From a virus, in the IMG/VR virus record IMGVR_UViG_3300030430_004471, positions 1-32,542 of that record: a DNA stretch of 32,542 nt, one strand, 5' to 3'. Every line of letters begins with the position of its first letter. The stretch's first letter is position 1. The translations under genes were made by a program, and so were the position numbers. Shown here in pieces: positions 2,460 through 32,542 of the stretch. Under the pieces are notes generated by a model, which saw only the letters and a program-made list of their open reading frames with translations, was not told where the DNA came from and made no database searches.

Positions 2460-4125
2460 ATTTTATGATTTAGGAATAAAAATCAATAGCAAAAAAATAG
2501 AACAAAAAACCATTTGCCCAAAGTGTGGGCCTACTAGAAAAAATAAAAGAGATAAGAGTTTAAGTGTTAATATAGAATCTGGTTTATATAATTGCCATAA
2601 TTGCGGCTGGAGTGGTAATGTATCTTATTCAAAAAATGAGTATAAATTTCCAGAAAAAATTAATTTAAATCTAAATGATAAAATTATAAGCTGGTTTAAA
2701 ACTAGAGGCATTAGTAAAGAATCTTTAGCCTATTGGAAAATAGGTGAATCATTAGAGTATATGCCTCAAGTAAATAAAAAGCAGCGCTGTATTAATTTTA
2801 ATTATTATAGAGATGATAAAGTAGTTAATGTAAAATATAGAAGTGCTGATAAAAATTTTAAATTGATTAGTGGTGCAGAGCTTATATTTTATGGTCTTAA
2901 TAATCTTAAATTAGATACTGATACTTGTTATATAGTTGAGGGTGAAATGGATGCTCTAAGTTTATATGAAGCTGGTATTTATAGCGTTTGTAGTGTGCCT
3001 AATGGTGCAAGTAAGGGTAATCAAAATTTAACCTATTTAGATAATTGCTATGAGGCTTTTAAAAATAAAAAAAATATAGTGTTATGTACTGATAATGATA
3101 CAGCTGGCATAGCCTTAAGAAATGAGCTAGCTAGGCGCTTAGGGTTTTTTAGGTGTAAATATGTAGATTTTAAAGAGTTTAAAGATGCTAATGAGGTATT
3201 AGTATCTGATGGCCCAGAAAAATTAAGACAGCTGCTTAAAAACGCTATTAATTATCCACTTGAGGGCGTATTAAACTTAGATGATATATGGCAAAATGTT
3301 TTAAACTATAATGATAATGGAATTAAAAATTATAGTATTGATTTAGGTGAATCAGATAATTATTTTAAAATTGAGCTGGGCCAGTGGTCAGTAGTTACTG
3401 GTATTCCTAATAGTGGTAAATCTGATATAATAGACCAGATTTTAATAAATGTAGCTAAAAAGCATGGATTTAGAAACGCTATTTTTAGCCCAGAGAGCTG
3501 GCCTTATGAAAGTCATATAAAAAGAATAGCCAATAAATATAATTCAGCTAATTGCAGCTCATCTCAGCTAAATGCTACTAAGGGCTTTATAAAAGAGTAT
3601 TTTAATTGGATTAAAATAGATTTAGCTAATCTTACTTTAAAAAGTATATTAGATAATTTTAAAAATCTGGTGTTACAAAAGGGTGTTAAAATTTGTGTTA
3701 TTGACCCTTATAATATGCTAGACCACACTGCCCAAAAAGATTTTAGTTATATAGGTAAACAGCTAAGTCAAATTACTCAATTTTGCCAGCAAACTAATAC
3801 ACATTTATTTTTAATAGCTCATCCTAGAAAAATTGAAAGTGAAAATGGTATTTTCAAAAAACCTAATTTATATTCAATATCTGGCTCTGCTGATTTCTTT
3901 AATAAGTCATTTAATGGCTTAGTAGTTTATAGATGTATTGGCCAGCGCACAAAATATAAATCTGACTTAGTAAAGGTTTATGTAGAAAAGGTAAAGCGTA
4001 AAGAAAATGGCCAGCTGGGATGTTTTGATTTAGCACCAGATTTTATAAATGGTGGTGTCTATAGGTCAATAGATAAATCTGATAAAAAATTAGAAGTTGT
4101 AAAAGATAATAATATACCTTTTTAA
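2449..4125 (+). CDS. Primase-helicase (T7 gp4-like)
   Basis: This 558-residue protein has the domain order of phage primase-helicases. An N-terminal zinc-binding module has CPKC at 23-26 and CHNC at 49-52. A TOPRIM domain follows, with YIVEGEMDALSLYEAG around 160-175 and a second acidic motif, VLCTDNDTAG, near 220. The C-terminal helicase has Walker A GIPNSGKS around 317-324 and Walker B KICVIDPYNML near 420. It would unwind DNA and make primers at the phage fork. The protein ends in DNNIPF, which resembles the C-terminal peptide of bacterial single-strand binding protein. The next gene starts 2 bases after the stop. Confidence 0.92.
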   Translation: MIDKFYDLGIKINSKKIEQKTICPKCGPTRKNKRDKSLSVNIESGLYNCHNCGWSGNVSYSKNEYKFPEKINLNLNDKIISWFKTRGISKESLAYWKIGESLEYMPQVNKKQRCINFNYYRDDKVVNVKYRSADKNFKLISGAELIFYGLNNLKLDTDTCYIVEGEMDALSLYEAGIYSVCSVPNGASKGNQNLTYLDNCYEAFKNKKNIVLCTDNDTAGIALRNELARRLGFFRCKYVDFKEFKDANEVLVSDGPEKLRQLLKNAINYPLEGVLNLDDIWQNVLNYNDNGIKNYSIDLGESDNYFKIELGQWSVVTGIPNSGKSDIIDQILINVAKKHGFRNAIFSPESWPYESHIKRIANKYNSANCSSSQLNATKGFIKEYFNWIKIDLANLTLKSILDNFKNLVLQKGVKICVIDPYNMLDHTAQKDFSYIGKQLSQITQFCQQTNTHLFLIAHPRKIESENGIFKKPNLYSISGSADFFNKSFNGLVVYRCIGQRTKYKSDLVKVYVEKVKRKENGQLGCFDLAPDFINGGVYRSIDKSDKKLEVVKDNNIPF

Positions 4126-13026: not shown

Positions 13027-13053
13027 AAGAGGCCAATTTTGGCCTCTTTTTTT
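13027..13053 (+). terminator. Strong terminator after the capsid gene
   Basis: A perfect inverted repeat, AAGAGGCCAA (13027-13036) with TTGGCCTCTT (13039-13048), is followed by a T-run to 13053. In RNA the GAGGCC/GGCCTC core would form the stem with an AT-rich loop. Confidence 0.92.
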
Positions 13054-13066
13054 ATTTAATTTTTAT

Positions 13067-13074
13067 TATCTTTG
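13067..13074 (+). promoter_or_regulatory. Promoter -7 element for the structured RNA
   Basis: TATCTTTG matches TAnnTTTG exactly and begins 14 bases after the capsid terminator. A TTG at 13039-13041 lies 25 bases upstream, slightly farther than usual. No coding gene follows for about 590 bases, so this promoter would drive the RNA at about 13080-13394. Confidence 0.7.
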
Positions 13075-13079
13075 TAACG

Positions 13080-13394
13080 CTTTCTGTAACAAGCTAAGGC
13101 GAAGATTAGTGAGTTTGTGGATAACTTTGATGTCTGAGAAAGCTAGCTACTAAGGACTTGCTCTTTGGGTCGCTAGATGTTCTTTTATGAATTTTTGCTA
13201 AACACTAAAAACCAAAGAGGTTTAAGTTTGCTGCACCTAGTGTAGTAAACTTTCGCAGTTCGGTATTTTAATGTCAATAAAAATCTGTAATTGGACTATC
13301 ACTAGCAAAGTTAGAGCAAGTTACTGGTAGTGATTTTAAGCACTTTTTTAGTGTTTTTTTTATTAAAATTTAGGCCAAAAATTGGCCTTTTTTT
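13080..13394 (+). ncRNA. Probable structured non-coding RNA, about 310 nt
   Basis: No convincing reading frame lies here, yet the stretch sits between a promoter (13067-13074) and a terminator (13372-13394) and folds well by hand. The 5' and 3' parts pair in nested order: 13086-13090 with 13320-13324, 13094-13097 with 13311-13314, and 13107-13112 with 13299-13304. Inside are an exact 8-bp helix, CTCTTTGG (13161-13168) with CCAAAGAG (13212-13219); a 12-bp hairpin at 13224-13252 with loop CCTAG and two G-U pairs; and a weaker A/T hairpin at 13265-13284. The CTAG in that loop could pair with CTAG at 13143-13146 or 13173-13176. A first, weak stop signal (CACT/AGTG then T8) is at 13341-13361. I recognise no known family; it lacks tmRNA, RNase P and group I intron core motifs. 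Confidence 0.7.
13372..13394 (+). terminator. Terminator of the structured RNA unit
   Basis: AGGCCAA (13372-13378) pairs with TTGGCCT (13382-13388) across a 3-base loop and is followed by seven T. It is strong and simple. Confidence 0.87.
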
Positions 13395-13428
13395 ATGCTT
13401 TTTTGTGATTTTCTAACACCCCGTATAA

Positions 13429-13496
13429 GCCATTTTAAGGCACTTTTAAGCCACTTTACCCTATCGCTGGTATCAGTATATCAAAAATCCTAGAAA
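13429..13496. repeat. Iteron-like module, copy A
   Basis: Three tandem ~11-base units with the core TTTTAAG occur: GCCATTTTAAG (13429), GCACTTTTAAG (13440) and the degenerate GCCACTTTACC (about 13450). Eight bases later comes GGTATCAGTATATCAAAAA at 13469-13487, and then GAAAGT at 13493. The same order of elements occurs at 30012-30088 (copy B). In both places a GGCC hairpin terminator lies upstream, and a promoter lies about 165 bases downstream. It may be a replication origin or an operator bound by a phage initiator; the function is inferred. The rest of 13497-13605 is AT-rich and shows nothing else I can name. Confidence 0.65.
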
Positions 13497-13605
13497 GTGT
13501 AATAGGCGCAATTTTCCAGAGTAGAGATTTTGCAAAATTTTTTACTTTTTTGAAAATGTATTTTTAGTTAAAATGATGGTATTTTTTGTAAATAAAAAAA
13601 TATTT

Positions 13606-13637
13606 TTTGTTTTATTAAAAAAAGTTTTGTAGTATTG
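13606..13637 (+). promoter_or_regulatory. Possible promoter of the Trp/Phe-rich gene
   Basis: TTTG at 13606-13609, a 20-base spacer and TAGTATTG at 13630-13637 approach the pattern TTTG-N20-TAnnTTTG with one mismatch. The start codon is 25 bases further on. The spacing equals that of the promoter at 30210-30241. Confidence 0.5.
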
Positions 13638-13662: not shown

Positions 13663-14268
13663 ATGAAAAATTTATTTAACAGAAACTGGAAAGCTAACGC
13701 CAGTCAAAAAAAAGTAATTAGCATCATTAATAATTTGAATGTGATTTTATTTAATCACAATTTCAAGCTATTTAACTTTACTATCTTTTCTATGAATTTT
13801 TGGGCTAGTAATGGCTCTAATTTTCATGACTTTAAAAATGTAAGTATTATTCCAAGTGAAATTAGATTTGAGCTTTTAGGTTTACAATTTTGGTTAATGT
13901 TTAAAGATGATATGAAAGAAATTAGAAAAGGTAGATTTGAAGAAAGAGGAAAGTGCTGGCGTACTCAATTTGTAGGCAGATGCTTTTGGCTTAGAGAAAT
14001 TAGAGTAAGCTGGAGTGGTTTATTTTTTACACAAGGAGAAATAATCTCATGGCAGCCTCATACTATACAGAGAAGTTGGAAATGGCACAATAAAAGATGG
14101 AATGAAAAGAAATTTTTTATTTCTGATTCTTTCAAATTATTTCCACCTAATCACTCTTTTTTTGATGGCTGTAATGGTGGTATAACTACTCGCTGGCATG
14201 CAGTAGATGATTTTGGTAGAACCATGCGCTTTACTTTTAAAATCTTTGGTAAGAGATTTTTTATTTAA
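13663..14268 (+). CDS. Unknown Trp/Phe-rich basic protein, 201 aa
   Basis: I do not recognise this protein. Its composition is striking: about 11 Trp and 29 Phe in 201 residues with many Arg and Lys, for example RSWKWHNKRWNEKKFF and CFWLREIRVSWSGLFF. There is no signal peptide or clear membrane helix because charges interrupt the aromatic runs. The pattern of alternating aromatic and charged residues suggests a beta-rich fold. It is the first gene of an island between the capsid and connector genes, with its own likely promoter and a terminator at 14436-14467 after the next small gene. It is not a reverse transcriptase, so the RNA upstream is not an obvious retron. Confidence 0.8.
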   Translation: MKNLFNRNWKANASQKKVISIINNLNVILFNHNFKLFNFTIFSMNFWASNGSNFHDFKNVSIIPSEIRFELLGLQFWLMFKDDMKEIRKGRFEERGKCWRTQFVGRCFWLREIRVSWSGLFFTQGEIISWQPHTIQRSWKWHNKRWNEKKFFISDSFKLFPPNHSFFDGCNGGITTRWHAVDDFGRTMRFTFKIFGKRFFI

Positions 14269-29922: not shown

Positions 29923-29975
29923 CAAAAAATGATTTGCCCACACTGCCTTTTTATAATTTTTTTAGGCGTTTTTTT

Positions 29976-29996
29976 GGCCATTTTTAGGCCTTTTTT
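29976..29996 (+). terminator. Weak terminator after the tail block
   Basis: GGCC (29976-29979) pairs with GGCC (29987-29990) across a 7-base loop and is followed by six T. The stem is short, but the surrounding T-runs make termination likely. Confidence 0.55.
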
Positions 29997-30011
29997 AGCA
30001 AAATCCAGCAT

Positions 30012-30088
30012 GCGTTTTAAGGCCCTTTTTAAGCGTTTTAAGCGATTTTAGGGGGTCTAGGGTATCAGTATATCAAAAAGTTGAGAAA
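30012..30088. repeat. Iteron-like module, copy B
   Basis: GCGTTTTAAG occurs at 30012-30021 and 30033-30042 (21 bases apart, two helical turns), and a variant, GCGATTTTAG, at 30042-30051. Nine bases later comes GGTATCAGTATATCAAAAA at 30061-30079, identical to copy A, then GAAAGT at 30084. The stretch 29923-30264 has no gene. It holds the terminator above, this module, AT-rich sequence with a GGCC inverted repeat (30179-30195), and the early promoter at 30210-30241. It is a good candidate for the phage origin or an early operator. Confidence 0.68.
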
Positions 30089-30209
30089 GTCCATTAGCGT
30101 TAAATTCCCTTCGTAGAAAAATCAAAAAATTCTTTCATTTTTTATTTTACATAATGTTAAAAAAAATCTTCAAAATGAGGCCATTTTTTAAGGCCAATAA
30201 AAATTAAAT

Positions 30210-30241
30210 TTTGATATTTAAATTATTTTTATATAACTTTG
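30210..30241 (+). promoter_or_regulatory. Promoter of the early/recombination operon
   Basis: TTTG at 30210-30213, a 20-base spacer and TAACTTTG at 30234-30241 match the Bacteroidetes promoter pattern well. It fixes the start of the next gene at 30265, since an upstream in-frame ATG at 30211 lies inside the promoter. Confidence 0.82.
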
Positions 30242-30264
30242 TTGGTACACAAAAAAATAAAAAA

Positions 30265-32342: not shown

Positions 32343-32542
32343 AGATAAAGTAGAAAAGGTATTTGAATTGGATATATCAGATACTACAAGACAATTAAAA
32401 TATATAGAGGCTAGAGCGTGTTATTACCAGCTCTGTATAGATGCTACAGCTCATAGCCTTACAGCTATTGCAAAATCTATAGGTAAATCACATGGCACTA
32501 TTATACATGCATTAAAAGAATTTCCCTATATGATGAAAAAAA
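32329..32542 (+). CDS. DnaA domain IV-like protein, N-terminal part
   Basis: This is the start of the gene whose end is at 1-321. The first 26 residues (MENIRDKVEKVFELDISDTTRQLKYI) resemble the N-terminal part of DnaA domain IV, and the HTH follows (see the entry at 1). The start overlaps the nuclease stop by 14 bases, so the gene is the last of the recombination operon and continues into the replication genes across the join. Confidence 0.8.
   Translation, partial: MENIRDKVEKVFELDISDTTRQLKYIEARACYYQLCIDATAHSLTAIAKSIGKSHGTIIHALKEFPYMMKK
32407..32542. repeat. Terminal direct repeat, right copy
   Basis: This is the copy of bases 1-136 with T in place of A at 32484. See the left copy. It shows that the genome is circular or terminally redundant. 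Confidence 0.97.

Follow-up and report, generated by a model that had tools for sequence, protein, structure and literature searches.

Introduction

To our knowledge, few large structured RNAs encoded by phages have been described, and almost none of them has a function. ROOL and GOLLD, structured phage RNAs located outside protein genes, have no function assigned to them; they are longer than 500 nt and often lie near tRNA genes. A three-way junction in which the loops of P2 and P3 pair with each other is the layout of purine riboswitches. The packaging RNA (pRNA) of phage phi29 likewise has a three-way junction of which two arms carry complementary loops (PMC5340915), and some other large phage RNAs assemble into RNA-only complexes (PMC12286853). 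Small phage RNAs that act as decoys also exist; they have their own promoter and bind a host defence protein (PMC10651486).

Our subject is an RNA encoded by the virus record IMGVR_UViG_3300030430_004471, whose full 32,542 bases we call the window (W). It resembles phi29 pRNA in being phage-encoded and free-standing and in having, on a three-way junction, two arms whose loops (L2 and L3) are complementary to each other. It differs from pRNA in host group, terminase type and genome, its L2-L3 contact may lie within one molecule, and pRNA has no equivalent of its long P4 helix and the conserved internal loop there. Like ROOL and GOLLD it is a structured phage RNA outside protein genes without an assigned function, but those RNAs have other folds and the window has no tRNA gene. 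Domain 1 shares the P2-P3 loop pairing of the purine riboswitch fold, whereas the RNA is free-standing rather than a leader and its junction sequence is another one. With RNA anti-CRISPRs (Racr) and antitoxin-mimic RNAs it has in common an own promoter; it is much larger and more elaborate.

Results

Bases 1-136 of the window recur at 32407-32542 with 135 of 136 positions identical, a direct terminal repeat; the genome is therefore probably complete and circularly closed, at ~32.4 kb. Its head and DNA-metabolism genes are of the ordinary tailed-phage kind: large terminase, portal, head protease, major capsid protein, head-tail adaptor and DNA primase/helicase. For the large terminase the match is phrog_2, a family common among the terminases of tailed phages, and not a phi29-type packaging ATPase. 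The host is probably of the Bacteroidetes type and flavobacteria-like, because of the type of promoter box described below and because Flavobacterium phages are among the distant capsid relatives.

The RNA occupies the gap between the end of the capsid gene (12998) and the start of a 201-aa ORF (13663) to which no function is assigned. From 5' to 3', the gap contains the capsid terminator, a -7 box, the structured stretch, a weak hairpin with a U-run and a strong terminator (Table 1). A sequence-only reading had described a gene-free stretch between the -7 box and the GGCC terminator, and we find the stretch, the box and this terminator where it placed them. TAnnTTTG is the Bacteroidetes-type -7 promoter box, and we take TATCTTTG to be an example of it. 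By itself the motif is not rarer than chance in the window (64 found, 57 expected). The box carries weight because its spacing to P1 is fixed: all complete members (W, L001, L003, L082, L084, L010 and L213) have it 4-5 nt ahead of P1, L010 in the version TATCTTTA. With P1 beginning so close to the box, the predicted RNA should start at or near P1. A coding gene was rejected. No ORF of at least 60 aa was found in the gap, the frames of 13061-13400 stay open for 36 codons at most, and indels separate the homologues; a conserved reading frame, which had been named beforehand as an argument against an RNA, is absent.

Table 1. Elements of the RNA unit in the window.
Feature	Position	Strand	Evidence or remark
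Capsid gene terminator, upstream boundary of the RNA unit	13027-13052	+	9-bp stem with U-run
Presumed promoter -7 box TATCTTTG	13067-13074	+	fixed spacing 5' of P1 in members
Domain 1, predicted three-way junction	13079-13143	+	covariation; R1/R2 model matches in other contigs
P1 (7 bp)	13079-13085 with 13137-13143	+	covariation
P2	13093-13097 with 13106-13110	+	covariation
L2 half of kissing pair, CGAAG	13100-13104	+	pairs with 13125-13129
P3 (5 bp)	13119-13123 with 13131-13135	+	covariation
L3 half of kissing pair, CUUUG	13125-13129	+	within 7-nt loop ACUUUGA, 13124-13130
Single invariant G joining P3 to P1	13136	+	conserved in members
Domain 2, long bulged helix P4	13146-13331	+	covariation on four sequences
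P4 outer stem	13146-13150 with 13327-13331, then 13155-13164 with 13313-13322	+	
P4 internal loop, 5' side, UUGGGUC	13165-13171	+	invariant in W, L001, L082, L084, L003
P4 beyond internal loop	13172-13189 with 13285-13306	+	
Exchangeable P4 tip, including 12-bp hairpin 13224-13252	13190-13284	+	comparison of relatives
P4 internal loop, 3' side, AAAGUU	13307-13312	+	invariant in W, L001, L082, L084, L003
Weak hairpin then U-run, possible 3' end	13339-13361	+	sequence; under terminator-scan threshold
Strong intrinsic terminator, downstream boundary	13372-13394	+	7-bp GGCC stem with U-run

As had been anticipated, the stretch 13075-13394 folds better than shuffled sequence: its -89.4 kcal/mol compares with -70.6 on average for shuffles (z -3.74), and none of 100 shuffles is equal or better. 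Homologues gave z values of -3.2 to -5.9. The minus strand of the same stretch is as extreme as the plus strand (z -3.85), and energy alone therefore cannot fix the strand. The closing pair of P3 is G-U in six of six sequences. On the opposite strand such pairs would be A-C mismatches, which argues that the plus strand is the strand under selection and the functional one.

The covariation expected among homologues proved strong in domain 1, the kissing pair and P4. In domain 1, the P2 loop has the form GG-n5-A, longer in L010, and P3 always combines its G-U closing pair with a 7-nt loop at the end. The five positions of L2 are complementary to positions 2-6 of L3 in every member: CGAAG/CUUUG in W, CAGAG/CUUUG in L001 and L084, CGUAG/CUACG in L003, CAGAG/CUCUG in L213 and UCGGA/UCCGA in L010. 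Across the whole domain (six distinct sequences, 22 pairs), 98.5% of cells are paired and 19 pairs have changed on both sides. These figures lean towards structure: L001 and L084 are near-identical, and nucleotides of the junction and loops whose homology was unclear, some of the L010 loop among them, were trimmed by hand before alignment. The domain 1 covariation score was 0.945, compared with 0.309 for shuffles (0 of 500 as high) and at most 0.175 for slid controls. P1 and P3 are supported likewise in the untrimmed alignments A4 and A6.

The kissing pair alone is paired in 30 of 30 cells, with double changes in all five pairs and a score of 0.933 versus 0.360. L2-L3 was spotted by eye after more than one partner had been tried, and was then scored against shuffles and slid controls. 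An earlier candidate partner of L3 (ACUUUG) was CAAAGU in the P4 internal loop. That pairing works for W and L001 and breaks down in L003, L213 and L010; L2-L3 replaced it because the latter fits all members. Covariation cannot separate L2-L3 pairing within one molecule from pairing between molecules. Loop contacts had previously been sought at a CTAG loop; the covarying complementary loops are L2 and L3 instead.

In domain 2, P4 comprises 27 pairs in the four sequences compared, excluding the distal tip and a joint of 3-4 nt; all cells are paired and 10 pairs show double changes. The internal loop of L213 reads GGGAACU on its 5' side and UAAAG on its 3' side. Beyond the internal loop the relatives diverge in kind. 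One tip is found in W and L001, another, unrelated to it, in L003 and L082/L084, and L010 and L213 have none. The base of P4 is nearly invariant while the tips differ between close relatives, which suggests that the tip has been swapped as a module. The 12-bp hairpin reported earlier is present in the window's tip, and L001 has a hairpin at the equal place built from different bases.

Other helices proposed in the sequence-only reading did not hold up. Its nested long-range pairings (13086-13090/13320-13324 and others) and an 8-bp helix (13161-13168/13212-13219) are exact complements, but they compete with the covarying helices, are not conserved and are missing from the minimum-energy fold. 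The predicted architecture is one of two domains, with no long-range closing stem.

We compared the gap behind the capsid gene, by blastn and by reading the gaps, in 80 loci drawn by capsid protein. The same RNA lies behind the capsid gene in L001-L006, and L082, L084, L085 and L086 were added by a pattern from the most conserved block. It is present in all 10 contigs that have a capsid identity of ~80% or more and reach past the capsid gene; L178 is cut off inside the RNA. L010, whose capsid protein is 71% identical, has a short version of 149 nt in the same place. Altogether there are six clear sequence types, the window's and five further ones, all from metagenomic, uncultured phages. Among capsid relatives at ~58-69% identity no RNA was found, bar the tentative case of L031 discussed below.

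A further copy, at G002:2546-2618 on the minus strand, was detected with R1, a covariance model built on the 5' domain (44.7 bits, E ~2e-9 to 8e-8 depending on search size). It lies in the contig of L009, ~7 kb downstream of the capsid gene and between other late genes, and its neighbours differ from those of the other members. This copy, detected by the model alone, has the same promoter box and domain 1, and the internal loop of its P4 (GGGAACU/UAAAG) is similar in shape. Its distance from the capsid gene indicates that the RNA unit is transferable.

Model searches of more than 1.1 Mb of other viral loci failed to detect any copy, records of isolated phages and plasmids gave no credible match to the RNA, and bacterial genomes searched by exact pattern or through capsid relatives contained none. 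A looser promoter-plus-P3 pattern gave no new member among the matches listed, and the pattern built for the L010 type matched L010 alone. Weak model matches in L009 and L011 (4 kb upstream of the capsid gene) and in L233 were judged to be chance.

L031 has a structured stretch behind its capsid gene (3783-3930) with a TATATTTG box, a 7-bp P1, GUAA, a 5-bp arm with a 7-nt loop and a GGGUA/CAAAG internal loop. We did not accept it as a distant member: model R2 misses it even with filters off, its kissing pair has just 4 bp and its fold scores z -2.0. Tentatively it is a very distant relative or an independent RNA, and it is left out of the counts.

Rfam yielded no family at gathering thresholds for the window and six relatives, and chance-level matches alone at relaxed E values, as the view of an RNA outside known families had implied. 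This includes the phi29-type pRNA model at gathering; the 6S RNA model gave no match, and neither did those of ROOL and GOLLD, whose 500 nt the members (149 to ~320 nt) do not reach. No purine riboswitch was matched in Rfam either, and the next gene is convergent in L082 and L084. ARAGORN found no tRNA or tmRNA in the window. Mimicry of a tRNA was rejected: a 7-bp stem and an arm of 5 bp with a 7-nt loop are alike, but there is no T-loop, CCA or ARAGORN match. What the RNA shares with phage structured non-coding RNAs in general is an own promoter, the lack of a reading frame and compensatory changes that keep the structure.

Discussion

On the agreement of folding energy, covariation, the lack of a conserved frame and the Rfam result, 13079-13334 is almost certainly a real structured non-coding RNA, in keeping with the earlier proposal of a free-standing phage-encoded RNA. 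We put at about even the chance that it acts in trans, mainly by binding protein. The fuller reading that we prefer, and hold with no more than balanced confidence, is that of a moron-like, self-contained unit from which a non-coding RNA of ~255-320 nt would be made during infection to act in trans on a protein. We call it moron-like because of its own promoter and terminators, its position in a variable accessory region between head genes and its other site in G002.

In such an accessory cassette, host RNA polymerase would initiate at P1 and the compact 5' domain would shield the RNA 5' end. The junction, the loop-loop contact and the UUGGGUC/AAAGUU surfaces would act in trans by binding a protein of the host or the phage, as a decoy, inhibitor or scaffold, and the swappable tip might adjust partner choice or stability. 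Counter-defence is a frequent purpose of morons and one plausible purpose of such protein binding, though as a specific assignment it is unlikely. Points in favour of the preferred reading are the covariation of domain 1 and P4, the copy elsewhere in G002, the 10 of 10 carriers, the strand-fixing G-U pairs, the convergent next gene of L082 and L084, which speaks against a leader there, and the decoy precedent (PMC10651486). Against it, relatives with a capsid identity under ~70% do without the RNA, and the conserved loops could alternatively serve base pairing or self-assembly.

The free-standing organization, with an own promoter and terminator, would equally suit a regulatory RNA that base-pairs with host or phage mRNAs through exposed loops or the tip, and such phage sRNAs are generally known. 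However, those unpaired stretches that are conserved are short, the loops are engaged with each other, the selection seen acts on structure, and the tip varies among close relatives; we regard an sRNA as unlikely. Self-assembly, with L2-L3 pairing between molecules into dimers or rings as in the phi29 packaging RNA, or into a homo-oligomer like ROOL and GOLLD, is improbable. It would account for a three-way junction with two arms whose loops are complementary, as in pRNA (PMC5340915), for the location behind the capsid gene, and would have parallels in the RNA-only complexes of other large phage RNAs (PMC12286853). Short arms and a 5-bp complementarity fit an intramolecular contact equally well, though, the packaging proteins are ordinary, and one copy is remote from the head genes. 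Since the RNA is missing from relatives whose capsid proteins are similar, it is no general packaging part. An intermolecular L2-L3 ring or chain that works in assembling heads, packaging DNA or sequestering a host factor we consider quite improbable; if true, a pRNA-like self-assembling RNA would have been invented a second time, unrelated to the first, in tailed phages of Bacteroidetes-type hosts.

Action in cis, as a leader or riboswitch of the downstream gene or as the 3' UTR of the capsid gene, would suit the purine riboswitch-like layout of domain 1 and the position downstream of the capsid gene in most members. We rate it very improbable: terminators flank the RNA on both sides in the window, G002 has other neighbours and Rfam gave no riboswitch match. 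In L082 and L084 the next gene is convergent, its stop overlapping the end of the RNA, so the RNA is not a leader there and that form of the explanation is refuted for these two loci. A last rival is a DNA element, such as an origin or a site for packaging or binding, that merely looks structured. In its favour, both strands fold better than shuffles, and another non-coding DNA element, present in repeated form, follows just downstream (13391-13631). Against it, G-U pairs are kept on one strand, the promoter spacing is fixed and compensatory changes preserve RNA pairs, the pseudoknot included, making a DNA element extremely improbable.

What is new is a structured RNA that matches no Rfam family, keeps its shape across diverged relatives and has a covarying loop-loop contact. 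Its compact size (149 to ~320 nt) suits structure determination, and the relatives with swapped tips and short natural versions are ready-made deletion experiments. The RNA may hint at a new strategy of decoy or self-assembly, and phage RNA biology would extend to uncultured phages of Bacteroidetes-type hosts.

Some further features of these genomes deserve mention. The convergent ORF directly behind the RNA in L084 (7282-7797, minus) and L082 (3632-4147, plus) encodes 171 aa with an HExxH motif (LHEIKHV) like that of ImmA/IrrE-type metallopeptidases; a Pfam search gave no match. In the window, the accessory stretch between the capsid and head-tail adaptor genes contains a small PD-(D/E)XK endonuclease-like gene (PF11645, 14555-14875). 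The downstream element mentioned above occurs in two copies, at 13391-13631 and 29971-30243, upstream of the ORFs at 13663 and 30266, and GGTATCAGTATATCAAAAA is common to both. The L010 phage likewise has two copies, one of them 77% identical to the window's 29971-30243 copy, and L007-L009 have one each, behind the capsid terminator. Possibly this is a shared regulatory or replication element.
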